Assembly: GCF_026151205.1 (NCBI RefSeq)
Contig: NC_087072.1
Span: 14,608,169 to 14,672,168 of the forward strand
DNA: 64,000 nt
DNA from: Bolinopsis microptera
Taxonomy: Eukaryota > Ctenophora > Tentaculata > Lobata > Bolinopsidae
Direction of reading: 5' to 3'
Below, piece by piece: positions 1 through 63,073 of the stretch. Both the position numbers and the translations under genes were made by a program. The number at the start of each line of letters is the position of its first letter. Position 1 is the first letter of the stretch. The notes below the pieces were generated by a model. That model ran no database searches. It was not told the DNA's origin and worked only from the letters and a program-made list of their open reading frames with translations.

Positions 1-165
1 ATCGCTGAAATAATATCCACCCGTCCACACTCAGTCAGTACCCAAACATGTGCTCACCGCCTTAACTTTCAGGTGCTCCCACGCGAAGATGTTTGATACC
101 AACGTTCCAGCCTTGGATACCGATCTAAGGTATGTTAATAAATCTACTCTATTCCAGTTTATTTT

Positions 166-284
166 ACAATTATGATGAAAAGCTGACAGTCTTAGCTGGC
201 AACTAGGCGGCTCCAGTAAAATGGAAGAACCTACTGCCTTGATGCCAGTTTTATGGTGATACTTTGTCGGTCTTATCTGATTGT
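166..284 (+). ncRNA. C/D-box snoRNA with internal hairpin (host intron 1)
   Basis: C box ATGATGA at 172-178 and D box CTGA at 277-280 are closed by a terminal stem ACAA/TTGT (166-169 with 281-284). Between them lies an internal hairpin with CTGGCA (196-201) pairing TGCCAG (243-248), so the RNA is longer (about 119 nt) than ordinary methylation guides. The D box ends 71 nt before the 3' splice site at 351. I could not assign a target or a named family. Confidence 0.7.
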
Positions 285-496
285 CTTGTTTCATCTTCCG
301 AAAATATATGTTAATGATTGACGTAATTGAAAACTAACCAGTTAATTTCAGATGTCGAACTTCAAAATGGAAGGTACACGCCACACCTCTTCACAGAGTA
401 GCTTGGTGCTGGCACACAGACATAAAACTCTGCAACCCATCACTAATCAGGTACACCCTAAGATTTTTCAATATTAAATGAATAAAATAAAAATAT

Positions 497-560
497 AATA
501 ATGATGAGATAGTCCCGCTTGCCCTCCAGCTGATTTCATTGATGAAGTGGTTCTGAATAC
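497..560 (+). ncRNA. C/D-box snoRNA guiding 18S, copy A (host intron 2)
   Basis: C box ATGATGA 501-507, D' CTGA 530-533, C' TGATGAA 540-546 and D CTGA 553-556. The guide before D' reads CTTGCCCTCCA, an 11-nt complement to the conserved 18S rRNA stretch UGGAGGGCAAG just before the helix-18 (530) loop. By the D'+5 rule the modified base would be the A of GGAGGG. Only 6 nt separate C' and D, so this is a single-guide RNA. The D box ends 65 nt before the acceptor. Further copies occur at 2637 and 3150. Confidence 0.85.
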
Positions 561-705
561 GAATACTCATTTACTGAAATCTTGACACCTCAGTATTGTA
601 GAATAACCAAAACTTTCACAGGCCCAATCCTCCTGCTGTCAGCTGAACGGACTGGTCCAACTCAGGTGTGTAACATTTTAATTGTTTTAAAATAATCTCC
701 TCTTA

Positions 706-773
706 TTTTAATGATGACAATAAGGTCCGTGTTTCTGATTAAAATGAAGCCACCCTTAACCTTCCTGACAAGA
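706..773 (+). ncRNA. SNORD18: U18-type C/D-box snoRNA, copy 1 (host intron 3)
   Basis: C box ATGATGA 711-717, D' CTGA 735-738, D CTGA 765-768. The guide GGTCCGTGTTT directly before D' is the guide of U18/SNORD18 and is complementary to the conserved 28S sequence AAACACGGACC; the D'+5 rule points to the A after AAAC. The D box ends 73 nt before the 3' splice site at 841. In vertebrates U18 sits in ribosomal-protein introns; here it is in a dedicated non-coding host. Target complementarity is from remembered rRNA sequence. Confidence 0.85.
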
Positions 774-961
774 TTCAAATTACATTACACTTAACAGCAG
801 TTATTCTGGATTTATAGAGAAGTAAAACTTGTTATTTTCAGAAACCTGGACATTGAAAAATTGGATTTCTTTTTCTACCTGCTACAGTGTTTGCAAATCT
901 CTTCTACACGAGGAGTAAAAGTAAGTCTCGCAGAATAAAAAATTATCTCAGCTCCGTAATA

Positions 962-1033
962 TTCTAATGATGTAAAATTTTTCCGTGTTTCTGATAAAAA
1001 TGAAGCCAACCTTTAGTCTTAACATCTGATTAG
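962..1033 (+). ncRNA. SNORD18: U18-type C/D-box snoRNA, copy 2 (host intron 4)
   Basis: Tandem paralogue of the preceding U18 copy. C box is ATGATGT (967-973), D' CTGA follows TCCGTGTTT, D CTGA is at 1026-1029, with a short TCTA/TAGA terminal stem. The 5' part of the guide has changed (TTTT in place of AAGG), shortening the 28S complementarity to about 9 nt. The D box ends 67 nt before the acceptor at 1096. Confidence 0.75.
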
Positions 1034-1215
1034 ATTGAAATCACATTACACAGCAGTTATCTGGATTGATAGAGAAGTAAAACTTGTTATTTTCAGGAAC
1101 CTGGACATTTAAAAATTGGATTTCAATTTCTACCTGCTACAGTGTTTGCAAATATCTTCTACACGAGGAGTAAAGTAAGTCTCGCAGAGTAAAAAATTAT
1201 CTCAGCTCCTTAATA

Positions 1216-1287
1216 TTCTAATGATGTACAATTTTTCCGTGTTTCTGATAAAAATGAAGCCAACCTTTAGTCTTAACATCTGATTAG
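1216..1287 (+). ncRNA. SNORD18: U18-type C/D-box snoRNA, copy 3 (host intron 5)
   Basis: Near-identical to copy 2: C box ATGATGT 1221-1227, D' CTGA 1245-1248 preceded by TCCGTGTTT, D CTGA 1280-1283, 67 nt before the acceptor at 1350. Exon plus intron were duplicated together (254-bp step), so copies 2 and 3 are a recent duplication. Confidence 0.75.
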
Positions 1288-1469
1288 ATTGAAATCACAT
1301 TACACAGCAGTTATCTGGATTGATAGAGAAGTAAAACTTGTTATTTTCAGGAACCTGGACATTGAAAAATTGGATTTCTTTTTCTACTTGCTATAGTGTT
1401 TGCAAATCTCTTCTACACGAGGAGTAAAGTAAGTCTCGCAGAATAAATAGCATCTCTGTAGTTTAAAAT

Positions 1470-1541
1470 TTAAATGATGATCACATACCCCATTCTTACC
1501 AGTCTAACTGGACGTTGCTGACTAAACAAATGTCTGATCTG
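1470..1541 (+). ncRNA. Candidate C/D-box snoRNA (host intron 6)
   Basis: C box ATGATGA 1474-1480 and D box CTGA 1534-1537. The D box lies exactly 70 nt before the 3' splice site at 1607, matching the other introns. A second CTGA at 1518-1521 is too close to serve as D'. No rRNA target recognised. Confidence 0.55.
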
Positions 1542-1773
1542 ATTTGACACAGAATTTTTGAATTCCCAGTCTTATTTAACGTGACTAATAGTGTTACTCT
1601 CCTTCAGCTACAACAAAAGCATCTGCTCTGATCCACGGAATAGACAATAAAACACATCTTCTCGCTGACACCAGTAATCTGGAACCTCCAAGTTATTTGG
1701 ACAACAGGTACGTGGTTGACAGTAAGATTTATTATAAGTTAGTAAAATACCCTTCATTGCAACTGAGTGTTCC

Positions 1774-1965
1774 CTGCAGTTTCGCCGCTGTCAGGGCAGC
1801 TCGGCGGTGTTTGGTCGCGTCCCTGTGGATGAGGCCTCCGCACTGTTGCAAAACAAGAGATACTTTCCTCTAATTGAGATTAAGTGTCTCCATTGCATAT
1901 TCCTTGCGTCTCGTGGAGACTCTAGTAGTCGGTTACCACGGGGATAAACCATGCAAATGACATTC
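1774..1965 (+). ncRNA. Candidate H/ACA snoRNA (host intron 7)
   Basis: This intron is longer than its neighbours, has no good C/D pair, and holds a block richer in GC than its surroundings. Hairpin 1 (1774-1850) contains CGCCG/CGGCG and CTG/CAG stems. An H-box-like ACAAGA is at 1853-1858. Hairpin 2 contains GTCTCC/GGAGAC with an internal loop and a GATTA/TAGTC lower stem. An ACA is at 1960-1962. The tail after the second stem is longer than usual for H/ACA RNAs, so the call is tentative. Confidence 0.38.
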
Positions 1966-2145
1966 CTCTTCTTTAATCTTTCTTCAAACTGATTCCTAAC
2001 AACTTATCGTGTTTGAAATCCATCTTTAAATGTGTACCCTTGTTTCAGGTTCTTACCGATAGTTCAAAGCCGAAGACTTCGAAGCCTAATCAACAGGTTA
2101 GAGTTTCTTCTAATTTCATTTACTTATTTGATTTTCCAACATTCT

Positions 2146-2210
2146 ACCAAATGATTTTACCGTGGGTACAGACATCGCAAAACATGGTGAACCTCATATT
2201 TTCTGATGGT
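2146..2210 (+). ncRNA. Candidate C/D-box snoRNA with ACCA/TGGT stem (host intron 8)
   Basis: A perfect terminal stem ACCA (2146-2149) with TGGT (2207-2210) brackets a relaxed C box (ATGATTT, from 2151) and a D box CTGA (2203-2206). The D box ends 70 nt before the acceptor at 2276. The internal GGGTACAGAC resembles the GGGCACAGAC of the family at 2889, suggesting distant paralogy. Target unknown. Confidence 0.55.
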
Positions 2211-2410
2211 AAAAATTCGTAGTTGTAAATTTTAACTTAATCAGATTGTTTTAACTTAATCTTTTTTATCCTTCAGGATATGGCGCAGTGTAAAATAGAA
2301 ACCTAATCTGTCGAACAAATGATCACTTGTACGCACTATTGATAAGGTACGATTTCAGATATCTTAAAAATAGTTGCTGTGTGACTTGCAACCCTAGCAG
2401 TTGGAAATCT

Positions 2411-2480
2411 TTACTTATGATTACATCACATGCACTACCATCTGAACCAAGATGACAGATACAAACATAATATGAAGTAA
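2411..2480 (+). ncRNA. C/D-box-like snoRNA, ATGA-D-box family 3 copy A (host intron 9)
   Basis: Relaxed C box ATGATTA 2417-2423, D' CTGA 2442-2445, C'-like GATGACA from 2451, D-position ATGA 2472-2475, closed by a perfect TTACT/AGTAA stem (2411-2415 with 2476-2480). ATGA ends 67 nt before the acceptor at 2542, exactly where canonical D boxes sit in this gene. The guide before D' (ACTACCAT) complements 8 nt of 18S AUGGUAGU, which is short. Copies are at 3974 and 4247. Confidence 0.6.
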
Positions 2481-2636
2481 TATTATGTTTTGTGAGCTTC
2501 ATGCTTGATCAATAACCAAATTTCTAAAGTACAAATCTTCAGGTAAACGGCCGGATTGAGAAACCTTGGAACCGCATTATTATCCCAACTTGGTAAGTTA
2601 AAGACATTTAACCTTCAATTCATGCCTGTTAATTTA

Positions 2637-2700
2637 ATATATGATGAGATAGTCCCGCTTGCCCTCCAGCTGATTTCTTTGATGAAGTGGTTCTGATATT
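2637..2700 (+). ncRNA. C/D-box snoRNA guiding 18S, copy B (host intron 10)
   Basis: C box ATGATGA 2641-2647, D' CTGA 2670-2673, D CTGA 2693-2696, with the same guide CTTGCCCTCCA as the copy at 497. It differs by one base between D' and C'. The D box ends 68 nt before the acceptor at 2764. Confidence 0.85.
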
Positions 2701-2888
2701 ATTACTCATGTTCAATTGAATTTCCTGTTATGTTCCCTTTTTCAAACATAACCTATTTTGGCAGGTACTGAAGTTATTTCCAGTCCAACATGAACCGCAC
2801 TGATTATCAGCCTCTAGGTCCTCGTCACTTCAAGAACCAAGATAGTAAGTTATTTCTAGAGATGATAGTTTATTGTTTGGTTATTTTA

Positions 2889-2952
2889 ATTGAATGATTA
2901 TAGCATTGGGCACAGACTTCAACTGATGACATTGTTTTAATTTATGACCATA
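2889..2952 (+). ncRNA. C/D-box-like snoRNA, possible 28S guide, copy A (host intron 11)
   Basis: Relaxed C box ATGATTA 2894-2900, a CTGATGA D'/C'-like block, and ATGA at 2944-2947 in the D position, 66 nt before the acceptor at 3013. The segment AGCATTGGGCA, followed by ACAGA or CAGA, can pair over 11 nt (one G-U) with conserved 28S UGCCCAGUGCU. Boxes depart from consensus, so function is inferred from position, conservation of three copies and complementarity. Confidence 0.55.
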
Positions 2953-3149
2953 TTAATGTTACATCTTCTCTCTGTATAACGAGTCTTCCTTGTTTAACAT
3001 AAAACCCTTTCAGAACCCAAGAAGGAGGTGAGATTTGACATGTCGACGTAGTATAGACACCTGTAGTGTGCCACTTGCGATAGTTGCCGAATTTAGGTAA
3101 GTTACATTTATAGTCTGGTTTCAATTTTAGACTCTGTTTGAGCAATTTA

Positions 3150-3213
3150 ATAAATGATGAGATAGTCCCGCTTGCCCTCCAGCTGATTTCATTGATGAAG
3201 TGGTTCTGATATT
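3150..3213 (+). ncRNA. C/D-box snoRNA guiding 18S, copy C (host intron 12)
   Basis: C box ATGATGA 3154-3160, D CTGA 3206-3209, identical guide CTTGCCCTCCA before D'. The D box ends 67 nt before the acceptor at 3276. Third copy of the 18S helix-18 guide in this host. Confidence 0.85.
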
Positions 3214-3390
3214 TCACCCTGAATAAGTGGAATTTACTGTCCCCTTGCTTTAGTTAAACAAACTTCAATGTCACAGGTGTTCTGAGTGCAAGTCTGATTC
3301 GAACCAAGCTGATCACTGGACTTCAGCTCTACTGTACTGCCTCACAATGATGTAAGTCACTTTTGGTTTTCATTGCTGGATCGAGACTTA

Positions 3391-3454
3391 ATCGAATGAT
3401 TACAGCATTGGGCACAGACTACTTCTGATGACATTGTTTTAATTTATGACAACA
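3391..3454 (+). ncRNA. C/D-box-like snoRNA, possible 28S guide, copy B (host intron 13)
   Basis: C-like ATGATTA 3396-3402 and D-like ATGA 3446-3449, with the same AGCATTGGGCA segment as the copy at 2889. ATGA ends 69 nt before the acceptor at 3518. Confidence 0.55.
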
Positions 3455-3651
3455 TTTGTGATGAATTCTTTCCTATAATTCAAAAGGTCGTCCTTTGTAT
3501 AACAAAAAACCGCCTCAGAACCCGAAAAGAAGCCTGCACATAGTTCAGAGAAACACCGATATTTATTTTCTTGTGGCCTAACGATCATTACCAATACTGG
3601 CCTGGGTAAGTTAAAACTTGAGATACAAGTAATTGTAATCACAAATTTCTT

Positions 3652-3715
3652 ATTGAATGATTATAGCATTGGGCACAGACTTCATCTGATGACATTGTTT
3701 TAATTTATGACCATA
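3652..3715 (+). ncRNA. C/D-box-like snoRNA, possible 28S guide, copy C (host intron 14)
   Basis: C-like ATGATTA 3657-3663 and D-like ATGA 3707-3710; same candidate guide as the copies at 2889 and 3391. ATGA ends 68 nt before the acceptor at 3778. Confidence 0.55.
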
Positions 3716-3887
3716 TTTTTGTATTATTCTTGAATATGATTTAAGTGTCTTCTTCGTTTAACATAGCATCCTGATCAGGACCCAAAAGTGTGGCATTGAA
3801 AACCTGATGTCGATTCTTTGACTAGACTGTCGTGGTCTTCAGTACTACTTGGTGAGTTTTAATCGATGTAATATAGTCTGGGTGAAA

Positions 3888-3966
3888 CAACCATTCTCCA
3901 GTCGTCCTGGAATTGTATAAACTGGAGATGGTCGTTGCAATCCCAAAATACTGAGTATGCTACTCA
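3888..3966 (+). ncRNA. Paired hairpins, possible H/ACA relic (host intron 15)
   Basis: CCAT-CTCCAGT (3891-3902) pairs ACTGGAG-ATGG (3921-3931) with one bulge. A second hairpin, TGAGTA/TACTCA (3952-3957 with 3961-3966), follows, separated by AAAATA (3945-3950), which fits the H-box pattern ANANNA. The second hairpin is too small for a standard H/ACA RNA. It shares the intron with the C/D-like element at 3974. Confidence 0.3.
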
Positions 3967-3973
3967 TAGAATT

Positions 3974-4041
3974 TTCAAATGATTACATCACATGCACTAC
4001 CATCTGAACCAAGATGACAGATACAACATTGTATGATTATA
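3974..4041 (+). ncRNA. C/D-box-like snoRNA, family 3 copy B (host intron 15)
   Basis: C-like ATGATTA 3979-3985, D' CTGA, GATGACA, and D-like ATGA 4033-4036, 65 nt before the acceptor at 4101. The guide is the same as in the copy at 2411. Confidence 0.6.
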
Positions 4042-4246
4042 AACTAACTAATTATTCAGTTGTAAAAACACTGCATATCAGCTAAAATTTAATATTTTCA
4101 GAACACCAACAGAACGTCAAAGAACTGTACCTGTCCGGCACACTAATAAGGTGATTATAAAGAGTGATCGTTTTACTATTTATAATCGCCGTGAAAAAGA
4201 AGCAATGATTTGAATAATCTGCAACCACCGACACCAAAATAGAATT

Positions 4247-4314
4247 TCCAAATGATTACATCACATAGAGATCCATCTGAACCAAGATGACAGATACAAC
4301 ATTGTATGATTATA
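4247..4314 (+). ncRNA. C/D-box-like snoRNA, family 3 copy C with altered guide (host intron 16)
   Basis: C-like ATGATTA 4252-4258 and D-like ATGA 4306-4309, 65 nt before the acceptor at 4374. It is nearly identical to the copy at 3974 except in the D' guide, where TGCACTACCAT is replaced by AGAGATCCAT. The change is confined to the guide, as expected if the copy retargets. Upstream in this intron, 4204-4238 is a truncated relic of the element at 4470. Confidence 0.55.
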
Positions 4315-4469
4315 AACAAACTAATTATTTCATTGTAAAAACACTGCATATCAGCTAAAATTTAATATCTTCAGAACACCAACAGTACGTTAAAGAACTG
4401 TACCTATCCGACATTTCAGGTGATTATAAAGAGTGATTTTTAAACTATTGATGATCGCCGTGAAAAAGA

Positions 4470-4537
4470 AACAATGATTTAAATAATCTGCAACCACCGA
4501 CAACAAAATGCGGAATAGATTTAAGTATATGAGAATG
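4470..4537 (+). ncRNA. Candidate C/D-box-like snoRNA (host intron 17)
   Basis: C-like ATGATTT 4474-4480 and D-like ATGA 4529-4532, 67 nt before the acceptor at 4599. It has no clear D' box and no recognised target. The call rests mostly on position. Confidence 0.4.
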
Positions 4538-5014
4538 ATTTAATAAATAACGTTTTCACGATGTCAACGTATTTAGTTAATAATCTACTAAAATTTCAGG
4601 AAGCACAAACAGCAAAATATTCAGCACTCAAGACAACTTAGACGACAAATCATCTTCTCTGACTGATGTCCTTCTCTTTGATAACAAGCACAAAGTGCTC
4701 TCAGAGAAACGTAGCTCAACTCTTAGAAGGACCAGGATAACCGTAAAAAGAACGTTGATGTATGAAATGCATTATGTTATGTTTAAACGAAAAGAATAGT
4801 TACAATTATTAAACTTGTTTAATTTTGTCTCATGCAATATCTTGGTCGCGTAAAAGCGGGATAATCAATATTGAAATAATACCCATTTTCAAATATAAGC
4901 ACAAAATGAAGGGGCTACAGTTTAAATTTCTGCCAAAAAACTGGGAAGAAGCCTTGTTTAATTCTCTAAAAAACATATTTCTAATTTCTGACGATCCATG
5001 TTCTCACAATCTAC

Positions 5015-8000
5015 CTTTTGGTGTCATATGCCACCTAAAGTTGACTTACTAATTGGTTGCAGGTGAGAAATTCAGTCAAAACTGTAAAATTTCGGTCCTG
5101 GAAATTTCATCTTCAAAAACTGAAAATGGGACAGAGATTTGGACAAAATGATTTTACAATTTTATTCGGGATTTTAACTTCCAGTACCCCAATATGGTTT
5201 CATACCATCATCAATTGACTGACTAATTGGTGTCTGGGAAAAAATTTCATCTTATCTGTCAAATTTGTGTTCAGAAAATTTCATATTTGAAAATGGGACA
5301 GACTTTTGAAAATACAACTTTTCGATTTGTTAAGCTTTCTGCTGTGGGCTTCTTCCGACCGAAATCAAACTTCCAGCACCTCTATCGTGTCATATGCCAC
5401 CTATAGTTGACTTACTAATTGGTTGCAGGTGAGAAATTCAGTCAAAACTGTAAAATTTCGGTCCTGGAAATTTCATCTTCAAAAACTGAAAATGGGACAG
5501 AGATTTGGACAAAATGATTTTACAATTTTATTCGGGATTTTAACTTCCAGTACCCCAATATGGTTTCATACCATCATCAATTGACTGACTAATTGGTTTC
5601 TGGGAAAAAATTTCATCTTATCTGTCAAATTTGTGTTCAGAAAATTTCATATTTGAAAATGGGACAGACTTTTGAAAATACAACTTTTCGTTTTGTTAAG
5701 CTTTCTGCTGTGGGCTTCTTCCGACCGAAATCAAACTTCCAGCACCTCTATCGTGTCATATGCCACCTATAGTTGACTTACTAATTGGTTGCAGGTGAGA
5801 AATTCAGTCAAAACTGTAAAATTTCGGTCCTGGAAATTTCATCTTCAAAAACTGAAAATGGGACAGAGATTTGGACAAAATGATTTTACAATTTTATTCG
5901 GGATTTTAACTTCCAGTACCCCAATATGGTTTCATACCATCATCAATTGACTGACTAATTGGTTTCTGGGAAAAAATTTCATCTTATCTGTCAAATTTGT
6001 GTTCAGAAAATTTCATATTTGAAAATGGGACAGACTTTTGAAAATACAACTTTTCGTTTTGTTAAGCTTTCTGCTGTGGGCTTCTTCCGACCGAAATCAA
6101 ACTTCCAGCACCTCTATCGTGTCATATGCCACCTATAGTTGACTTACTAATTGGTTGCAGGTGAGAAATTCAGTCAAAACTGTAAAATTTCGGTCCTGGA
6201 AATTTCATCTTCAAAAACTGAAAATGGGACAGAGATTTGGACAAAATGATTTTACAATTTTATTCGGGATTTTAACTTCCAGTACCCCAATATGGTTTCA
6301 TACCATCATCAATTGACTGACTAATTGGTGTCTGGGAAAAAATTTCATCTTATCTGTCAAATTTGTGTTCAGAAAATTTCATATTTGAAAATGGGACAGA
6401 CTTTTGAAAATACAACTTTTCGATTTGTTAAGCTTTCTGCTGTGGGCTTCTTCCGACCGAAATCAAACTTCCAGCACCTCTATCGTGTCATATGCCACCT
6501 ATAGTTGACTTACTAATTGGTTGCAGGTGAGAAATTCAGTCAAAACTGTAAAATTTCGGTCCTGGAAATTTCATCTTCAAAAACTGAAAATGGGACAGAG
6601 ATTTGGACAAAATGATTTTACAATTTTATTCGGGATTTTAACTTCCAGTACCCCAATATGGTTTCATACCATCATCAATTGACTGACTAATTGGTTTCTG
6701 GGAAAAAATTTCATCTTATCTGTCAAATTTGTGTTCAGAAAATTTCATATTTGAAAATGGGACAGACTTTTGAAAATACAACTTTTCGTTTTGTTAAGCT
6801 TTCTGCTGTGGGCTTCTTCCGACCGAAATCAAACTTCCAGCACCTCTATCGTGTCATATGCCACCTATAGTTGACTTACTAATTGGTTGCAGGTGAGAAA
6901 TTCAGTCAAAACTGTAAAATTTCGGTCCTGGAAATTTCATCTTCAAAAACTGAAAATGGGACAGAGATTTGGACAAAATGATTTTACAATTTTATTCGGG
7001 ATTTTAACTTCCAGTACCCCAATATGGTTTCATACCATCATCAATTGACTGACTAATTGGTTTCTGGGAAAAAATTTCATCTTATCTGTCAAATTTGTGT
7101 TCAGAAAATTTCATATTTGAAAATGGGACAGACTTTTGAAAATACAACTTTTCGTTTTGTTAAGCTTTCTGCTGTGGGCTTCTTCCGACCGAAATCAAAC
7201 TTCCAGCACCTCTATCGTGTCATATGCCACCTATAGTTGACTTACTAATTGGTTGCAGGTGAGAAATTCAGTCAAAACTGTAAAATTTCGGTCCTGGAAA
7301 TTTCATCTTCAAAAACTGAAAATGGGACAGAGATTTGGACAAAATGATTTTACAATTTTATTCGGGATTTTAACTTCCAGTACCCCAATATGGTTTCATA
7401 CCATCATCAATTGACTGACTAATTGGTTTCTGGGAAAAAATTTCATCTTATCTGTCAAATTTGTGTTCAGAAAATTTCATATTTGAAAATGGGACAGACT
7501 TTTGAAAATACAACTTTTCGTTTTGTTAAGCTTTCTGCTGTGGGCTTCTTCCGACCGAAATCAAACTTCCAGCACCTCTATCGTGTCATATGCCACCTAT
7601 AGTTGACTTACTAATTGGTTGCAGGTGAGAAATTCAGTCAAAACTGTAAAATTTCGGTCCTGGAAATTTCATCTTCAAAAACTGAAAATGGGACAGAGAT
7701 TTGGACAAAATGATTTTACAATTTTATTCGGGATTTTAACTTCCAGTACCCCAATATGGTTTCATACCATCATCAATTGACTGACTAATTGGTTTCTGGG
7801 AAAAAATTTCATCTTATCTGTCAAATTTGTGTTCAGAAAATTTCATATTTGAAAATGGGACAGACTTTTGAAAATACAACTTTTCGTTTTGTTAAGCTTT
7901 CTGCTGTGGGCTTCTTCCGACCGAAATCAAACTTCCAGCACCTCTATCGTGTCATATGCCACCTATAGTTGACTTACTAATTGGTTGCAGGTGAGAAATT

Positions 8001-11000
8001 CAGTCAAAACTGTAAAATTTCGGTCCTGGAAATTTCATCTTCAAAAACTGAAAATGGGACAGAGATTTGGACAAAATGATTTTACAATTTTATTCGGGAT
8101 TTTAACTTCCAGTACCCCAATATGGTTTCATACCATCATCAATTGACTGACTAATTGGTTTCTGGGAAAAAATTTCATCTTATCTGTCAAATTTGTGTTC
8201 AGAAAATTTCATATTTGAAAATGGGACAGACTTTTGAAAATACAACTTTTCGTTTTGTTAAGCTTTCTGCTGTGGGCTTCTTCCGACCGAAATCAAACTT
8301 CCAGCACCTCTATCGTGTCATATGCCACCTATAGTTGACTTACTAATTGGTTGCAGGTGAGAAATTCAGTCAAAACTGTAAAATTTCGGTCCTGGAAATT
8401 TCATCTTCAAAAACTGAAAATGGGACAGAGATTTGGACAAAATGATTTTACAATTTTATTCGGGATTTTAACTTCCAGTACCCCAATATGGTTTCATACC
8501 ATCATCAATTGACTGACTAATTGGTTTCTGGGAAAAAATTTCATCTTATCTGTCAAATTTGTGTTCAGAAAATTTCATATTTGAAAATGGGACAGACTTT
8601 TGAAAATACAACTTTTCGTTTTGTTAAGCTTTCTGCTGTGGGCTTCTTCCGACCGAAATCAAACTTCCAGCACCTCTATCGTGTCATATGCCACCTATAG
8701 TTGACTTACTAATTGGTTGCAGGTGAGAAATTCAGTCAAAACTGTAAAATTTCGGTCCTGGAAATTTCATCTTCAAAAACTGAAAATGGGACAGAGATTT
8801 GGACAAAATGATTTTACAATTTTATTCGGGATTTTAACTTCCAGTACCCCAATATGGTTTCATACCATCATCAATTGACTGACTAATTGGTTTCTGGGAA
8901 AAAATTTCATCTTATCTGTCAAATTTGTGTTCAGAAAATTTCATATTTGAAAATGGGACAGACTTTTGAAAATACAACTTTTCGTTTTGTTAAGCTTTCT
9001 GCTGTGGGCTTCTTCCGACCGAAATCAAACTTCCAGCACCTCTATCGTGTCATATGCCACCTATAGTTGACTTACTAATTGGTTGCAGGTGAGAAATTCA
9101 GTCAAAACTGTAAAATTTCGGTCCTGGAAATTTCATCTTCAAAAACTGAAAATGGGACAGAGATTTGGACAAAATGATTTTACAATTTTATTCGGGATTT
9201 TAACTTCCAGTACCCCAATATGGTTTCATACCATCATCAATTGACTGACTAATTGGTTTCTGGGAAAAAATTTCATCTTATCTGTCAAATTTGTGTTCAG
9301 AAAATTTCATATTTGAAAATGGGACAGACTTTTGAAAATACAACTTTTCGTTTTGTTAAGCTTTCTGCTGTGGGCTTCTTCCGACCGAAATCAAACTTCC
9401 AGCACCTCTATCGTGTCATATGCCACCTATAGTTGACTTACTAATTGGTTGCAGGTGAGAAATTCAGTCAAAACTGTAAAATTTCGGTCCTGGAAATTTC
9501 ATCTTCAAAAACTGAAAATGGGACAGAGATTTGGACAAAATGATTTTACAATTTTATTCGGGATTTTAACTTCCAGTACCCCAATATGGTTTCATACCAT
9601 CATCAATTGACTGACTAATTGGTTTCTGGGAAAAAATTTCATCTTATCTGTCAAATTTGTGTTCAGAAAATTTCATATTTGAAAATGGGACAGACTTTTG
9701 AAAATACAACTTTTCGTTTTGTTAAGCTTTCTGCTGTGGGCTTCTTCCGACCGAAATCAAACTTCCAGCACCTCTATCGTGTCATATGCCACCTATAGTT
9801 GACTTACTAATTGGTTGCAGGTGAGAAATTCAGTCAAAACTGTAAAATTTCGGTCCTGGAAATTTCATCTTCAAAAACTGAAAATGGGACAGAGATTTGG
9901 ACAAAATGATTTTACAATTTTATTCGGGATTTTAACTTCCAGTACCCCAATATGGTTTCATACCATCATCAATTGACTGACTAATTGGTTTCTGGGAAAA
10001 AATTTCATCTTATCTGTCAAATTTGTGTTCAGAAAATTTCATATTTGAAAATGGGACAGACTTTTGAAAATACAACTTTTCGTTTTGTTAAGCTTTCTGC
10101 TGTGGGCTTCTTCCGACCGAAATCAAACTTCCAGCACCTCTATCGTGTCATATGCCACCTATAGTTGACTTACTAATTGGTTGCAGGTGAGAAATTCAGT
10201 CAAAACTGTAAAATTTCGGTCCTGGAAATTTCATCTTCAAAAACTGAAAATGGGACAGAGATTTGGACAAAATGATTTTACAATTTTATTCGGGATTTTA
10301 ACTTCCAGTACCCCAATATGGTTTCATACCATCATCAATTGACTGACTAATTGGTTTCTGGGAAAAAATTTCATCTTATCTGTCAAATTTGTGTTCAGAA
10401 AATTTCATATTTGAAAATGGGACAGACTTTTGAAAATACAACTTTTCGTTTTGTTAAGCTTTCTGCTGTGGGCTTCTTCCGACCGAAATCAAACTTCCAG
10501 CACCTCTATCGTGTCATATGCCACCTATAGTTGACTTACTAATTGGTTGCAGGTGAGAAATTCAGTCAAAACTGTAAAATTTCGGTCCTGGAAATTTCAT
10601 CTTCAAAAACTGAAAATGGGACAGAGATTTGGACAAAATGATTTTACAATTTTATTCGGGATTTTAACTTCCAGTACCCCAATATGGTTTCATACCATCA
10701 TCAATTGACTGACTAATTGGTTTCTGGGAAAAAATTTCATCTTATCTGTCAAATTTGTGTTCAGAAAATTTCATATTTGAAAATGGGACAGACTTTTGAA
10801 AATACAACTTTTCGTTTTGTTAAGCTTTCTGCTGTGGGCTTCTTCCGACCGAAATCAAACTTCCAGCACCTCTATCGTGTCATATGCCACCTATAGTTGA
10901 CTTACTAATTGGTTGCAGGTGAGAAATTCAGTCAAAACTGTAAAATTTCGGTCCTGGAAATTTCATCTTCAAAAACTGAAAATGGGACAGAGATTTGGAC

Positions 11001-13336
11001 AAAATGATTTTACAATTTTATTCGGGATTTTAACTTCCAGTACCCCAATATGGTTTCATACCATCATCAATTGACTGACTAATTGGTTTCTGGGAAAAAA
11101 TTTCATCTTATCTGTCAAATTTGTGTTCAGAAAATTTCATATTTGAAAATGGGACAGACTTTTGAAAATACAACTTTTCGTTTTGTTAAGCTTTCTGCTG
11201 TGGGCTTCTTCCGACCGAAATCAAACTTCCAGCACCTCTATCGTGTCATATGCCACCTATAGTTGACTTACTAATTGGTTGCAGGTGAGAAATTCAGTCA
11301 AAACTGTAAAATTTCGGTCCTGGAAATTTCATCTTCAAAAACTGAAAATGGGACAGAGATTTGGACAAAATGATTTTACAATTTTATTCGGGATTTTAAC
11401 TTCCAGTACCCCAATATGGTTTCATACCATCATCAATTGACTGACTAATTGGTTTCTGGGAAAAAATTTCATCTTATCTGTCAAATTTGTGTTCAGAAAA
11501 TTTCATATTTGAAAATGGGACAGACTTTTGAAAATACAACTTTTCGTTTTGTTAAGCTTTCTGCTGTGGGCTTCTTCCGACCGAAATCAAACTTCCAGCA
11601 CCTCTATCGTGTCATATGCCACCTATAGTTGACTTACTAATTGGTTGCAGGTGAGAAATTCAGTCAAAACTGTAAAATTTCGGTCCTGGAAATTTCATCT
11701 TCAAAAACTGAAAATGGGACAGAGATTTGGACAAAATGATTTTACAATTTTATTCGGGATTTTAACTTCCAGTACCCCAATATGGTTTCATACCATCATC
11801 AATTGACTGACTAATTGGTTTCTGGGAAAAAATTTCATCTTATCTGTCAAATTTGTGTTCAGAAAATTTCATATTTGAAAATGGGACAGACTTTTGAAAA
11901 TACAACTTTTCGTTTTGTTAAGCTTTCTGCTGTGGGCTTCTTCCGACCGAAATCAAACTTCCAGCACCTCTATCGTGTCATATGCCACCTATAGTTGACT
12001 TACTAATTGGTTGCAGGTGAGAAATTCAGTCAAAACTGTAAAATTTCGGTCCTGGAAATTTCATCTTCAAAAACTGAAAATGGGACAGAGATTGGGACAA
12101 AATGATTTTACAATTTTATTCGGGATTTTGACTTCCAGTACCCCAATTTGGTTTCATACCATCATCAATTGACTGACTAATTGGTTTCTGGGAAAAAATT
12201 TCATCTAATCTGTCAAATTTGTGTTCAGAAAATTTCATATTTGAAAATGGGACAGACTTTTGAAAATACAACTTTTCGTTTTGTTAAGCTTTCTGCTGTG
12301 GGCTTCCTCCGACCGAAATCAAACTTCCAGCACCTCTATCGTGTCATATGCCACCTATAGTTGACTTACTAATTGGTTGCAGGTGAGAAATTCAGTCAAA
12401 ACTGTAAAATTTCGGTCCTGGAAATTTCATCTTCAAAAACTGAAAATGGGACAGAGATTGGGACAATATGATTTTACAATTTTATTCGGGATTTTGACTT
12501 CCAGTACCCCAATTTGGTTTCATACCATCATCAATTGACTGACTAATTGGTTTCTGGGAAAAAATTTCATCTAATCTGTCAAATTTGTGTTCAGAAAATT
12601 TCATATTTGAAAATGGGACAGACTTTTGAAAATACAACTTTTCGTTTTGTTAAGCTTTCTGCTGTGGGCTTCCTCCGACCGAAATCAAACTTCCAGCACC
12701 TCTATCGTGTCATATGCCACCTATAGTTGACTTACTAATTGGTTGCAGGTGAGAAATTCAGTCAAAACTGTAAAATTTCGGTCCTGGAAATTTCATCTTC
12801 AAAAACTGAAAATGGAACAGAGATTGGGACAATATGATTTTACAATTTTATTCGGGATTTTGACTTCCAGTACCCCAATTTGGTTTCATACCATCATCAA
12901 TTGACTGACTAATTGGTTTCTGGGAAAAAATTTCATATAATCTGTCAAATTTGTGTTCAGAAAATTTCATATTTGAAAATGGGACAGACTTTTGAAAATA
13001 CAACTTTTCGTTTTGTTAAGCTTTCTGCTGTGGGCTTCTTCCGACCGAAATCAAACTTCCAGCACCTCTATCGTGTCATATGCCACCTATAGTTGACTTA
13101 CTAATTAGTTGCAGGTGAGAAATTCAGTCAAAACTGTAAAATTTCGGTCCTGGAAATTTCATCTTCAAAAACTGAAAATGGGACAGAGATTGGGACAATA
13201 TGATTTTACAATTTTATTCGGGATTTTGACTTCCAGTACCCCAATTTGGTTTCATACCATCATCAATTAACTGACTAATTGGTTTCTGGGCAAAAATTTC
13301 ATCTACGTAATCTGTCAAATTTGTGTTCAGAAATAT
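5015..13336. repeat. 366-bp dimeric satellite array, about 22.7 copies
   Basis: Units start at 5041 and recur every 366 bp without drift (5407, 5773, 6139 ... 13093); the last is partial. Each unit splits into two related halves, about 174 bp (5041-5214) and 192 bp (5215-5406), which share TTGACT-ACTAATTGGTT starts, a TTTCATnTT / AAAATGGGACAGA core and CAAACTTCCAG-type ends, so the unit is a diverged dimer. Copies 2-19 are almost identical. Copies 1 and 4 share two private variants (TGTCTGGG; CGATTTG), and the last four copies (from 11995) are diverged (GATTGGGAC, TTTTGACTTCC, CATCTAATC). No coding potential is evident. Confidence 0.97.
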
Positions 13337-15315: not shown

Positions 15316-16359
15316 TCAGTAGTAGATCCCAGCCGAACTGTCTTCTTCAAGAGATACACGAGGCATGAGGTGAATCCCACCATTTATCAGATCGTGTAGA
15401 CCTCTGGATTTGGGCGGCATGAGAAGACACTCAATCTGGTAATTCCTGTCGAAGTTGCTGTCCCAAAACTCCTGATCTCCAAGAGTAGCACAAACACAGA
15501 GCTCTACACGAGCCCCGGGAGGGAGGGTACTAGGGAGAGTGAGACTGAACGAGAACTTGTCGATATCACCTGCAACCGGTGCACAATAGTTTGATACCAC
15601 CTCCTGGTGGGTCAGCCAGTAATCCCGGGTATATCGCACTTTAACCGTCTTCTCGAAGCAAATGTTGTGAATGAGGATGGTGCCTGTCAGAGTGAACTTG
15701 TCAACCAGCACATTCTCCAAACCAACACGATTCCGTCTGATTGTGTCTAAATAGTTTAGACGGGAGATGGGCTGAAATTAGGTCTAGTTATAAAATAACA
15801 TATGTGATGTAAATTGTACCATGTTCAACATTCAACTTTTAAATCTTGATACGAAACCAGCAGCTTTACTTCCAGAAACCGGATTTCAAATAGAAACTCA
15901 TTTCCGACCAGGATCATTACATAAACCTAGCTATTTTGCTTACCTGGGCAAAGTTGAGTCTGAGGCCAGGTGATAGGGAGATAGAGGGAGAGTGTAGTGG
16001 GGTTGAAGGTCTGGATGCTAATCTGGGTCGTTGTGGCGGGGGAGCAGGCTCTAACTCCTCTACTTTCAACATCTTTACCTGTCATTATTTCAGTTAATAA
16101 ACTTATAGAAACAAATTTTAAGAAATTGATCAGGAGAAGTGACCTTGATTTGAATCCTAACGATCAGAGTATTGTTTTGGAATTCTACCTGGGTAAGAGG
16201 TAAGCCCATGCTATCTGCAAATACCACAGACTTTTTCCTCCTTACGAAGGAGAGTGTAGGTCTGAAGGATTTGTCAGGCAAAGGAGCAGGCTTGATGACT
16301 CTGGGAGGGGTGACACAAATTTCTCCATCGGATGTGTTTCTGTTTTTGATGCTGTGTTC
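15316..16359 (-). CDS. PPP1R3-like glycogen-targeting subunit of protein phosphatase 1 (5' partial)
   Basis: Three phase-0 exons on the minus strand: 16359-16189, 16078-15944 and 15771-15316 (stop at 15316), all with AG/GT borders, giving at least 253 residues. Exon 1 carries the PP1-docking RVxF motif as KSVVF followed by ADSMGLPL, the spacing seen in PPP1R3 proteins. Exon 2 is a proline-rich linker ending LRLNFAQ. Exon 3 continues PISRLNYLD and holds a CBM21 starch/glycogen-binding domain with FEKTVKVRYT, DKFSFSLTLP and the hallmark WDSNFDRNYQIE. The family brings PP1 to glycogen to dephosphorylate glycogen synthase. Exon 1 begins at a splice acceptor (TTTCAG), so one or more 5' exons are missing; an open stretch near 16670-16800 is possible but its phase does not join directly. 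I cannot say which vertebrate paralogue is closest. Confidence 0.88.
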
Positions 16360-52287: not shown

Positions 52288-53692
52288 CTAGGCTGTTGTT
52301 TCACTATCCAATAAACATTTCCATAGATGCTTAGTGACCTCAGCTTTGAAAACACTAGTAGACACAATCTGTCTTACCTGTAAAGGGAGTCCATTCCACA
52401 GTATATGAGTTCTGTAGAAAAATGACTTTGCCAGTGGGCTATTTGAGGTACATAAGGTGTGTGAATTCTGACTTAACTTAGGTAAAATTGATGACACAAT
52501 AGACAGACTGTCGAGGTGGCAACGTCTTAGTCGAGAAGTGCCCTGATATAAAGTGAGATAGTGAGGCAGCGATACAGGAATTAAATTGTTCAGAACTTTG
52601 TGGAAAAAAATAAGATCATTCAAGTCAAACTTTTGAGACAAAGGGAGAATGTCGACAAGCTTGCACTTTTTGACATATTGCTCAGGTGGATAACTGCGGC
52701 CCTCTTCAGACAGAATCCATTTAATAGCTCTCTTTTGGAGACTTTCTAATTTATCACTAAGTGATTTATTACAAGGGCGCCAGATTATGGAACAATTTTC
52801 GAATTGGCTACGAACTAGGGAGAGGTAAAGCGCCCGGCGACGTTTCAGATCAATGACAATATGGCCATCTCTTCTGACCATACCAAGTTGTTGGCAGGCC
52901 TTAGTATAAATTCTGTCGCACTGACTATTCCAACTTAGCTTAGGAGTAACATCGACTCCAAGATCTTTTTCTAACTCTACATACACAAGAGGAGAGCCAT
53001 CAAGATTATATGCGAATGGAGGAGATAAAGATGGTTTTCCTGAAACAATAAGCACTTTACATTTTGCTGGATGGAATCGCATTTTGTTTCTAAGTGCCCA
53101 GTCAGAGAGATAGTCTATATCCATTTGTAAATTGGTATTATCAGAAGATGAATTTATTTTACGCCAGATTTTTGTATCATCGGCATACAAAACAATATCA
53201 GTATTATCCGAAAGGCCAAGAGGAATATCATTGATAAACAATACAAAAAGTAAGGGACCAAGGATAGAGCCCTGGGGGACACCAGAATTAACTGAGAGGG
53301 TAGATGACATCTCATTACCAATAACCACTCTTTGGTAACGGCCTTGAAGGTAATTGGTAAGAAATTTGAGAAGTGTACCATCAATGTTATATAAGGTCTT
53401 TAGCTTATGAAGAAGGATATCATGATTTACAGAATCAAATGCCTTAGCAAAATCAAAATACACAACATGATTGATAATGTTTTCGTTAAGAGACAATGCC
53501 AGGCTATCACAAAAATCAACCATATTGGTTGTGCATGACTTGTGCTCTAGAAAACCATGCTGCCTGGGATCAAGAAGGGTACTTGTCAAAGAAAGCAGTT
53601 TACGTTTAACAATGCGCTCAAAAACTTTCATGACTAAACAAGTAAGGGATATTGGTCTATAGTTTTCAACCTCACTTTTCTTACCAATCAAC
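52288..53692 (-). pseudogene. LINE reverse transcriptase domain (5' broken)
   Basis: The meaningful frame starts near LIGKKSEVENYRPISLTC, inside RT block 1-2, and runs through YFDFAKAFDSVNH, GVPQGSILGPLLF and the catalytic YADDTKIW, then the thumb and C-terminal tail to a stop at 52288. The N-terminal ~90 residues normally found between the linker and VENYRPISL are missing: the upstream frame stops at YDTDISYVNDVDW and this frame begins only at IGKK, so a deletion plus frameshift separates them. Residues upstream of this point in the same frame are not LINE-like. Confidence 0.9.
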
Positions 53693-53699
53693 ATCATTG

Positions 53700-54120
53700 A
53701 CATAGGAGATGTCAGTGTCATAAAGTGAAGGATCCGAAAACTGGTTATAAAAGAAAGAATTGAAAAGTTCAGCTTGATCTTTGGGATTGAACCGAAGCTG
53801 TCCAGAATAACTAACACAATTAGGAATACGGCAGGAGTTAGATTTATACTTAACATGTGACCAAAACTTCTTAGTTATAAGCGCTGGATCATCACTATTA
53901 AAAAGATTATCTCTTATTTTGGCTGATGAGAGCCTCTTAAAATCTTTACGGCTAGTAACAAACTTTAACTCATCAGAAATAGAACCAGAAATTTTAAATT
54001 TAGCTCTGAGTCTATCTTTTTTACGGCATGAAGAAAAAAGTTCACTATCGAACCACGGGGGTTGGAACTCTGATTTAATAATTACTTTAGGAATATGTAT
54101 ATCAACTAAATTCATAATGC
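53700..54120 (-). pseudogene. LINE linker region between endonuclease and RT
   Basis: A frame reading PPWFDSELFSSCRKKDRLRA to FNSFFYNQFSDPSLYDTD is typical of the segment between endonuclease and RT in CR1/L2 elements. It is separated from the endonuclease part by the 257-bp insertion and from the RT by a frameshift and deletion. Confidence 0.85.
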
Positions 54121-54130
54121 AGTCTTTAAC

Positions 54131-54387
54131 TTTTTTTTTAACGGAAAAGAATATTCAAACAATATACACATAATATAGCAATGGCCAATTGGCTGACAAG
54201 GTCATGGCCTGAACAAACAATTTTTTTAAAATAGTCAAGTGATGCTAAAGCAGAGCACAAATGTGTAATAAGTTAATAGATTAAAAAACTGATTCATGTG
54301 ATGCATTCGCAGAGCACAGATAAAAATACTGATTCAATGATTAAAATTATAGCTGTGAGTGTCAATAAATTACTGTGTCGTAAAAAA
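54131..54387 (-). mobile_element. SINE-like insert inside the LINE, 10-bp target duplication
   Basis: Flanked by AGTCTTTAAC on both sides (54121-54130, 54388-54397). On the minus strand it ends in a run of nine A, so it inserted by target-primed reverse transcription in the LINE's orientation. It interrupts the codons between KLVKD and CIMNLVD. Its 3' part shares TATATTGTTTGAATA with sequence at 51230 and 55667. Confidence 0.85.
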
Positions 54388-54388
54388 A

Positions 54389-55639
54389 GTCTTTAACTAA
54401 CTTCCAAGACGAATCAGGATCTAGGCATTCTAGGACTTGCCAATTAATCGAGCATAATTCACGATTTATCATGTCCCAGTTTGCTTTCTTAAAATTATAG
54501 ATTTTACGTTTAGGAGTTTTCTTACGGGAAAAGGAGCTTTTAATTGAAAAAGTGACAGGAAAATGATCAGATTTGCACACGGAATGAGGATCACAGACAT
54601 TCAAGTTATCGATTGTGTTATCATAATTACTGAGAAGAATGTCTAATGTATTACCACTTTTATGGGTGGGTGATGTGATCAACTGGGAGAGAGAAAGATC
54701 ACTGAAAGAATCTATGAAGGATTGCTCAATAGGTACGGTACTGGATGAAGATAGCCAATCTGTATGGGGGAGATTAAAATCACCAATAACATAGATTTTA
54801 GGGGGATTCTTTTTGGAAACTAGCTTGCGAATATAACTAACTATGACATCATGATTAGGTAACCCAAGAGTTCCTACTCTATAACAAGTACAGATTACAA
54901 TACTCTCTTTGTTAGGAAAAGAAATTTTAACGGCAAGCATTTCTGCACCTAGGCTAACTGGTAGTCGGGTTGTAGTGGCGTCGAGATCAGACCGAACAGC
55001 CAAAAAAACACCACCTCCATTTTCCGTAAACTTTTTAGGGTTATTAGGATCTTGAGGATGAGTCTTTCTCGTGCGGTCATTGCGGAAGATTTCATATTGA
55101 GAAGAAGGAAAGATTTCGTTGCTAGAAATAGATTTTTTGAGCCAAGTCTCATTTAGGGCAATTATGTCAGGCTGCTCTATGTTAGCAAAGGATTGAAGTT
55201 CGGAAATCTTATTACCATCAAGAAGGGGATGGGAGGAGCTTAGGTTACTGAAAGGAATGAGACCTTGGACATTTTGGTAGAGTACAGATAGGGAGTTGGG
55301 ACCTGGATTAAGCATAGAAGGATTAACAAGAGTTATCAAAAGAAAGTTAAGAGAGAAAACCCAAAGAATGAATAAAGAGACTAGACGCCTGAGGCGGCTG
55401 GAATACTTGACTCTATTCATCTTACCAGGGAGAAGAACATTTCTTATAAACCATGAGGAGATAATTACAAAGAAAAGTTTGATGTGGGAGCAAGCAAGAA
55501 ATGGTATAAGATAACGTGGGCTGTCAAGGAGTAGAGAGGAATGAATATTAGAATCTAGGGGGAATACGGTGTTCATGGACCTAGTCGTGGAGAGAAGAAT
55601 TGGGAGAAATATTGAGTTGGCTGAATTGTGAGTCACCAA
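54389..55639 (-). pseudogene. LINE apurinic-like endonuclease domain
   Basis: A hydrophobic N-terminal ~100 residues, then LSVLYQNVQGL, DIIALNETWL, NGGGVFLAVRSD, YVIGDFNLPHTDW, NTLDILLSN and SDHFPVTF, the ordered motifs of the exonuclease-endonuclease-phosphatase domain of non-LTR elements. Catalytic E, D, N and H positions look intact. The frame continues into the insert and stops at 54362, so the polyprotein is cut here. Confidence 0.9.
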
Positions 55640-55640
55640 G

Positions 55641-62773: not shown

Positions 62774-63073
62774 CTGTCCAGATTTTTAACCTCGATGTGA
62801 AAAAGCGTAGATTTTATTTTATGACTTATTTAAATAACTTATTTGTGTTTTGGGTAAACTCAGCAATTATTGTTTGTGTTATCAGTTCTGTAAATATTCA
62901 GATTTATGTGTGAGTATTATTGCATAAGAACACCACACCATAAAACTTAACAGCTATTTTATCATGTGCTGAATATTATTCAATATTTGCCATTTAAATT
63001 TAAATTATTCCGACAAATAAAAACGTAGGATTTGAACCATCATTTAAATATAACCCAACTTGTAGTAAAGACC

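Follow-up and report, generated by a model that had tools for sequence, protein, structure and literature searches.

We analyzed a 64,000-nucleotide (nt) stretch of the genome of the ctenophore Bolinopsis microptera (contig NC_087072.1, positions 14,608,169 to 14,672,168 of the forward strand; hereafter the window). The left end of the window carries the 3' part of a gene that we call host gene 1 (HG1). From its sequence, HG1 is almost certainly a non-coding host gene for small nucleolar RNAs (snoRNAs), of the same kind as UHG, GAS5 and the Drosophila Uhg genes. Between positions 73 and 4830 the curated structure alternates 17 introns with 18 exons that lack coding capacity, all on the plus strand. 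In full, HG1 has 28 introns, about 27 of which contain a snoRNA according to our reading of Rfam matches and box finders.

Gene structure of HG1, HG2 and HG3

The gene structure is carried by a chain of splice sites. We scored such chains with generic donor and acceptor weights that are blind to snoRNAs, across the 8 kilobases (kb) that hold the whole of HG1. The HG1 chain scores 142 and has 28 introns (one lies upstream of the putative start and another fuses two later introns), compared with a maximum of 28 in 30 Markov shuffles. Retraining the weights on 59 introns from the first pass over HG1 and a second host gene (HG2, see below) raises the score to 325; none of 50 shuffles exceeds 18.7, and the opposite strand yields 17.9. 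Elsewhere in the window, the generic chain scores 12.8-36.9 in 13 of 14 other 8-kb stretches.

The initial annotation had proposed splice signals and about 18 non-coding exons alternating with 17 introns at 73-4830. The curated structure returns the same counts, and a spliceable exon/intron chain on one strand far exceeds the shuffles and exceeds the opposite strand.

Curation of HG1 was light. The retrained chain gave 29 introns. We discarded the first of these, which lies before the putative start, and set the acceptor of intron 21 to 2764, as in the generic chain, in place of 2783. The 3' splice site of intron 12 is at 351 in the retrained chain and at 396 in the generic chain; a spacing of 71 nt also favors 351. 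According to the retrained chain, introns 1-11 are in part or in full outside the window on its left side, and the window begins within intron 11. The first donor is at position 4256 of locus L003 (C1:14605424), some 2.75 kb before the window begins. A pyrimidine-rich stretch, seen by eye, lies 5' of this donor (L003 ~4190-4215) and may or may not mark a terminal oligopyrimidine start.

When HG1 is used to search the genome at the DNA level, one similar place is found elsewhere: a U17 snoRNA on contig C3. This U17 lies inside HG2, which runs on the minus strand from about C3:15825200 down to about 15813300 and has about 45 introns. Besides the second U17 (SNORA73, 62.5 bits), HG2 contains two U14-like RNAs and H/ACA-like elements. 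Its splice chain scores 229 with generic weights (maximum of 33 in shuffles) and 342 after retraining (maximum of 33.4). The retrained chain stops after 32 introns at a weak acceptor. We removed its first intron and filled in the remainder by reading and with the help of the first-pass chain, which has 45 introns and contains one spurious start and some fused pairs. The curated sets thus hold 28 HG1 and 45 HG2 introns, 73 in total. Intron lengths are uniform: 46 of the 73 measure 160-185 nt, with a median of 180.

Two HG2 snoRNAs have copies on contig C6, which lead to a third host, HG3 (L050, C6:12741001-12751000, minus strand). HG3 has eight or nine snoRNA introns, counted by eye, and sits close behind an RPS15A-like gene (likewise identified by eye). 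The chain of this region, introns of the RPS15A-like neighbor included, scores 98.4, compared with a maximum of 41.7 in 50 shuffles and 24.8 on the antisense strand. Hosts were sought by similarity to HG1 and HG2 only. Hence there are at least three hosts, and hosts with unrelated snoRNAs would escape this search.

We do not claim a promoter element shared by HG1 and HG2. The candidate, AACGCGT-N7-AACGCA, was found by eye and the chance expectation for such a match is, by a rough estimate, near one. It occurs upstream of both first exons (L003 ~4106-4125 for HG1; L009 4787-4806, minus strand, for HG2), and genome-wide there are 12 matches versus 3 for the reversed control. Nine of the ten other loci with the motif (L037, which overlaps L036, was omitted) have no snoRNA match at E up to 0.5. 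Matches to microRNA families at these loci mostly fall on both strands at the same places, and we take them for palindromic repeats.

Content of the introns and predicted targets

Box finders separate the host genes from their surroundings. A strict C/D finder, run at two thresholds, returns 3 and 4 candidates on the sense strand of HG1 and 8 and 13 on that of HG2. The antisense strand of HG1 has none, and across the antisense strands of both genes the count is 0 or 1. In the remaining 52 kb of the window there are 0 to 3 per strand. As a group, the C/D elements have boxes C and D, a terminal stem and ribosomal RNA (rRNA) pairing upstream of D or D', and single elements vary.

A relaxed finder places candidates in 68 of the 73 introns (27/28 in HG1, 41/45 in HG2), some of which are mispicks, for example in introns 18 and 22, where Rfam places the true element. 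It finds no candidate in HG1 intron 7 and HG2 introns 5, 9, 24 and 37. HG2 intron 37 holds the second U17, and HG2 intron 24 a degenerate copy of the C/D RNA found in HG2 intron 38. We read HG1 intron 7 and HG2 introns 5 and 9 as H/ACA. HG1 intron 7 folds into two hairpins (z=-2.63; 1 of 200 shuffles is equally good); the hinge reads AAAUAA and an ACA lies close to the end, both boxes assigned by eye. No H/ACA family matches L003 at E up to 1, which covers intron 7 and also HG1 intron 9, another H/ACA candidate, and the HG2 assignments to H/ACA other than U17 were made by eye.

Rfam models identify some of the elements. In the window, U17/SNORA73 (RF00045) matches at 1759-1965 over its full length (1-219) with 70.9 bits and E=5.6e-16; the curated cut-off is 74 bits. 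Weaker matches are SNORD18 (introns 14-16), SNORD88 (introns 22, 24 and 25) and SNORD33 (introns 20 and 26). Left of the window, HG1 intron 8 matches SNORD24 (L003 6125-6193, E=0.19). In the other hosts, snosnR60_Z15 exceeds its gathering score of 41 in HG2 (47.1) and HG3 (56.7), and SNORD36 exceeds its gathering score of 30 in HG2 (33.1). SNORD14, SNORD57, SNORD27 and SNORD53/92 stay below theirs.

It had been claimed that every intron contains a C/D-box or H/ACA-like element. This is nearly the case: the C/D boxes stand above controls, intron 18 has the H/ACA snoRNA U17, and by our reading 16 of the 17 window introns contain a snoRNA. The claim fails for intron 28 (4420-4599), which has no convincing one.

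If the elements are working guides, they should pair with rRNA. Targets were sought in the animal's own 18S (clean, without its 3' end), its 28S (error-rich) and its 5.8S (from the same error-rich copy). This ribosomal DNA copy at L006 1886-7402 is error-ridden, and the adjoining 18S is clean as far as a stretch of 5000 N. A guide is the sequence that precedes box D or a box D' reading CTGA, and its pairing with rRNA must cover the fifth base. Of 116 strict guides, a count into which identical copies enter separately, 57, 35, 24 and 5 reach duplex scores of 9, 10, 11 and 12. The corresponding means in 21 control sets (20 Markov shuffles and one reversed) are 24.9, 8.5, 2.8 and 0.9.

The Rfam names and the predicted sites go together. 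The SNORD57-like RNA of HG2 intron 8 forms a 16-nt pairing at 18S A99. The SNORD14-like RNAs of HG2 introns 15 and 35 are predicted to target C416 of the 18S, the SNORD27-like RNA of HG2 intron 4 A28, the SNORD36-like RNA of HG2 intron 40 A620, and the SNORD33-like RNAs of HG1 introns 20 and 26 U1270. The human sites of SNORD57, SNORD14, SNORD27, SNORD36 and SNORD33 are, we take it, A99, C462, A27, A668 and U1326.

In the window, introns 13, 15-17, 20, 21 and 23-26 have rRNA matches with a score of at least 10. Some of these stand beside non-canonical boxes and are outside the strict count; the guides of intron 24, for example, pair with 28S in this way. Introns 15 and 16 have lost part of the SNORD18-like D' guide (28S-type) and match 18S nt 1197 with a score of 11. 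A change of target after duplication is possible, and is weakened by the fact that about 2% of guides reach a score of 11 by chance.

These matches also bear on the idea that HG1 is a decaying array, in which few snoRNAs function and most copies are dead duplicates. Recent duplications of whole units would fit this idea (introns 15/16 with flanks of 93 and 100%; introns 26/27 with a 3' flank of 91% and an exon of 82%), as would the altered guide of intron 27 and the missing element of intron 28. Yet the guides of introns 13, 15-17, 20, 21 and 23-26 still pair with rRNA, and the splice sites are intact along the whole chain. We consider general decay improbable.

The spliced exons contain no sign of a protein. 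The longest ATG frame in the spliced HG1 exons (2195 nt) has 104 amino acids, where the 95% point of shuffles is 110; in HG2 (3177 nt) it has 72, where that point is 111. HG1 could in principle encode a protein and have numerous introns that in some cases host snoRNAs by happenstance, and the 104-amino-acid frame does come near the 95% point. However, this frame is within the shuffled range, and it runs through tandemly duplicated exons. All three frames are stopped in 10 of 27 internal exons in HG1 (15 of 44 in HG2), and exon lengths modulo three are distributed 11, 10 and 6 in HG1 and 17, 10 and 17 in HG2. A coding gene is very unlikely.

The position of the boxes within the introns points to splicing. 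In the snoRNA-blind chain, 30 introns of 150-200 nt have NTGATGA and CTGA at a suitable distance. In each of the 30, box C begins 45-61 nt from the start of the intron; in 25 of them, box D ends 60-76 nt upstream of the 3' splice site. For vertebrate intronic C/D RNAs a distance to the 3' splice site of about 70 nt is described as optimal, and it is seen in a Drosophila cluster (PMC1821038). Short of RNA data, this spacing is the strongest sign of splicing-dependent processing. Independent or polycistronic snoRNA genes with spacers, as in plants and trypanosomes, would account for numerous small RNAs in tandem on the same strand, but plant-type clusters need neither a splice chain (142 versus at most 28 in shuffles) nor a narrow distance from box D to the splice site (25/30), and such genes, with splice sites that arose by chance, are very unlikely here.

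As a non-coding host gene, HG1 would work as follows. RNA polymerase II would make one long precursor. The spliceosome would cut out the short introns, in which box D mostly ends up ~60-78 nt short of the 3' splice site, close to the distance at which assembly of the small nucleolar ribonucleoprotein is reported to be coupled to splicing. The introns would then be debranched and trimmed to the core protected by the small nucleolar ribonucleoprotein, as in other members of the family. C/D RNAs are 2'-O-methylation guides and U17 acts in 18S processing. Accordingly placed in these families, the C/D RNAs of the hosts would guide the 2'-O-methylation of 18S and 28S rRNA, and the U17 of HG1 and HG2 would act on 18S. 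The spliced exons, in which coding content is undetectable, would probably be discarded.

Several observations weigh against HG1 and HG2 being such hosts throughout. The Rfam search suggested in the initial annotation yields the SNORA73, SNORD18, SNORD88 and SNORD33 matches given above, and none of the matches in the window reaches its gathering score; we regard such scores as normal when short C/D families are sought in distant animals. HG1 intron 28 and HG2 intron 34 are without a clear snoRNA. No rRNA target was found for window introns 12, 14, 19, 22 and 27, where the 28S copies were used uncorrected and a U18-type 28S target for intron 14 was left unscored. The score-10 match of intron 28 depends on three G-U pairs with a T-run and looks like chance. 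Since the 28S copies are error-rich, 28S targets are incomplete or under-called, and some are possibly false. The separate entry of identical copies raises the guide count. The opposite strand of HG2 scores 61 after retraining, above shuffles and far below the sense score of 342. On the plus strand, the 8-kb stretch from position 6000 scores 92 with the generic chain; it consists mostly of a 366-nt tandem array, each copy of which holds a splice-like TTGCAG/GTGAGA, the likely cause of the raised score. In the curated set, box D lies 60-78 nt before the 3' splice site in 53 of 68 introns (13 of 17 in the window), a figure that is partly circular because some splice sites were picked with this spacing in mind; the 25 of 30 is not.

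Copies of snoRNA cores between introns

To see how the snoRNAs relate to each other, we compared 67 C/D elements all against all (U17 and introns without a candidate were excluded, and six cores were set by hand). Pairs with cores below 60% identity serve as nulls. Their mean identities and 99% points are 0.51 and 0.66 for the 5' flank, 0.49 and 0.62 for the 3' flank, and 0.46 and 0.60 for the exon. A core identity of at least 0.70 is found in 32 pairs, and 16 of these reach at least 0.91.

The 16 close pairs fall into different classes. HG1 15/16 and 26/27 are unit duplications, with exon identities of 0.92 and 0.82. The SNORD88-like trio (introns 22, 24 and 25; three pairs) has 3' flanks of 0.64-0.70, above the 99% point. 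Hence these pairs look like old unit copies and not like a clean core-only class. In the other 11 pairs, 3' flanks (0.33-0.61) and exons (0.29-0.58) are all inside the 99% points. Two of the HG2 pairs (19/20 and 25/39) have 5' flanks right at the 99% point; in 25/39 the resemblance continues upstream, where 19 of 25 bases agree.

Full identity, over 56, 60, 61 and 68 nt, is seen for four cores. In most pairs the likeness stops 0-7 nt outside the boxes; it extends upstream in HG1 21/23 and HG2 25/39. Older paralogues have cores at 0.70-0.86 and flanks at chance, and the U17 copies of HG1 and HG2 are 80% identical. The most telling case is a SNORD24-like RNA found in HG1 introns 8 and 11, with a relative in HG2 introns 25 and 39. 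Identity is 0.97 within HG1, 1.00 within HG2 and 0.80 in all four comparisons between the genes.

The core-only pattern suggests copying of cores or gene conversion. RNA reinsertion and core-limited gene conversion would both produce it, and strong selection alone may do likewise. Retroposition of snoRNAs is known from nematodes and platypus, as cited in PMC3412847. Many pairs within this one genome fit a conserved snoRNA in an unconserved exon context. Introns 14/15 and 14/16 speak against a conserved payload: their exons are 0.92-0.95 identical but their cores only 0.73-0.78, the opposite pattern. The divergence of intron 14 from introns 15 and 16 could be a core replacement or a fast change of the guide.

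We tentatively propose, as a reading about as open to doubt as to belief, that this ctenophore gathers a large number of rRNA guides in a handful of giant hosts without coding capacity, in which the mature snoRNA (a core of 56-78 nt, 91-100% identical) and not the exon-intron unit is often copied or homogenized. This may happen through reinsertion at a position that splicing permits or through conversion confined to the core. The core-only copies offer a testable case of snoRNA spread between introns.

Window features and known systems

The features of HG1 in the window are listed in Table 1.

Table 1. Features of HG1 in the window, with window coordinates.
Feature	Position	Strand	Content and basis
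HG1 intron 11, 3' end	1-72	+	Splice chain; intron starts ~100 bases left of window
SNORD24-like C/D element, intron 11	ends at 8	+	97% identical copy in intron 8
Exon 12, first exon wholly within window	73-129	+	Both splice chains
Intron 12	130-351	+	Long C/D element 172-280; rRNA target not found
Intron 13	451-621	+	C/D element 501-556; 18S nt 551 of the same genome pairs with the D' guide
Intron 14	666-841	+	SNORD18-like C/D element 711-768; Rfam SNORD18 706-772, 30.6 bits, E=0.011
Intron 15	921-1096	+	Altered SNORD18-like copy 967-1029; guide matches 18S nt 1197; 254-nt unit repeat
Intron 16	1175-1350	+	Altered SNORD18-like copy 1221-1283
Intron 17	1429-1607	+	C/D element 1474-1542; weak 28S match, score 10, three G-U
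Intron 18	1708-2048	+	U17/SNORA73-like H/ACA snoRNA 1759-1965; Rfam; 80% identical copy on C3
Intron 19	2097-2276	+	C/D element 2151-2206, degenerate box C, strong terminal stem; rRNA target not found
Intron 20	2347-2542	+	SNORD33-like element 2417-2475; Rfam 28.9 bits, E=0.057; guide pairs with 18S nt 1270
Intron 21	2593-2764	+	C/D element 2641-2696; snoRNA shared with introns 13 and 23
Intron 22	2845-3013	+	SNORD88-like, box C 2894; Rfam 26.8 bits, E=0.013
Intron 23	3097-3276	+	C/D element 3154-3209; same snoRNA as introns 13 and 21
Intron 24	3352-3518	+	SNORD88-like, box C 3396; Rfam 29.2 bits, E=0.0027
Intron 25	3606-3778	+	SNORD88-like, box C 3657; Rfam 24.2 bits, E=0.076
Intron 26	3852-4101	+	SNORD33-like C/D element 3979-4036
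Intron 27	4151-4374	+	SNORD33-like copy 4252-4309, guide altered; rRNA match not found
Intron 28	4420-4599	+	Duplicate of 5' part of intron 27, without SNORD33-like element
Last exon	4600-4830	+	Splice chain; ATTAAA at 4808, possible polyadenylation signal; putative transcript end

Two genes lie left of HG1, one RPL36-like and the other with a BRCT-like end, both identified by eye only. Directly behind HG1 lies the 366-nt tandem array (5021-13333, 22.7 copies, 99% matches). Further along the window, a CBM_21 carbohydrate-binding module at 15316-15777 (minus strand, E=5.9e-25) is probably, we assume, an exon of a glycogen-targeting phosphatase subunit. An open frame of 546 amino acids at 34972-36609 matches DUF3504 and QRICH1 domains; we take it to be of the tyrosine-recombinase-related kind linked to Crypton elements. 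A LINE-like reverse transcriptase (E=2.5e-29) and an endonuclease (E=2.3e-13) lie in separate open frames at 52291-55648 on the minus strand, and a POP4-like RNase P/MRP subunit p29 at 63029-63688 (Pfam E=4e-21).

Ctenophores are placed as sister to other animals by chromosome-scale synteny (PMC10232365). Non-coding genes dedicated to hosting snoRNAs, with placement coupled to splicing, would then be present on either side of the deepest split among animals. Hence such hosts are either ancestral or have arisen again. HG1, HG2 and HG3 also give a map of predicted 2'-O-methylation sites for a ctenophore. In a limited search of the open-access literature, we found no title or abstract on ctenophore snoRNA hosts. 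A microRNA paper on Mnemiopsis touches snoRNAs in passing (PMC3563456), a paper on RNA interference in early-branching animals uses snoSeeker snoRNA prediction as a cluster filter (PMC6211395), and the sponge snoRNA work concerned ribosomal-protein introns (PMC3412847).

The host-gene interpretation of the initial annotation holds in that HG1 is non-coding, has about one snoRNA per intron and is even longer than the part first seen. Its premise of a vertebrate design does not hold, nor does a snoRNA in every intron. The supposed novelty among invertebrates is lost as well, as Drosophila Uhg genes already have one snoRNA per intron (PMC4430873). According to that source there are seven such genes with up to 16 introns, each with one snoRNA (two introns excepted), for 48 snoRNAs in all (PMC4430873). 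Uhg1-5, 7 and 8 are described as having no recognizable open reading frame, like HG1. HG1 has 28 introns and HG2 about 45, in a ctenophore and not an insect, and the comparison implies no kinship of the hosts. UHG-like hosts are also reported from Neurospora (PMC2780460).

Mammalian UHG/SNHG1 and GAS5 resemble HG1 as non-coding spliced hosts with intronic C/D snoRNAs, and HG1 has more introns. UHG/SNHG1 and GAS5 have a 5' terminal oligopyrimidine (5'-TOP) start, and U17HG is the gene SNHG3. UHG hosts 8 snoRNAs and GAS5 hosts 10 (PMC7277114). U17HG is, like HG1 and HG2, a non-coding host of U17 (PMC7277114). Unlike in U17HG, U17 is here a single snoRNA among many, with one copy in each of two large hosts that are rich in C/D elements and combine C/D and H/ACA RNAs. 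The SNHG14 and MEG8-type arrays have very many C/D introns in one non-coding transcript, made up of tandem copies of a few orphan snoRNAs. In contrast, the hosts described here contain many different elements, a good part of which have predicted rRNA targets. HG1 is thus notable for its size, its mixture of C/D and H/ACA RNAs and its phylum, and the core-only copies are the more original observation.

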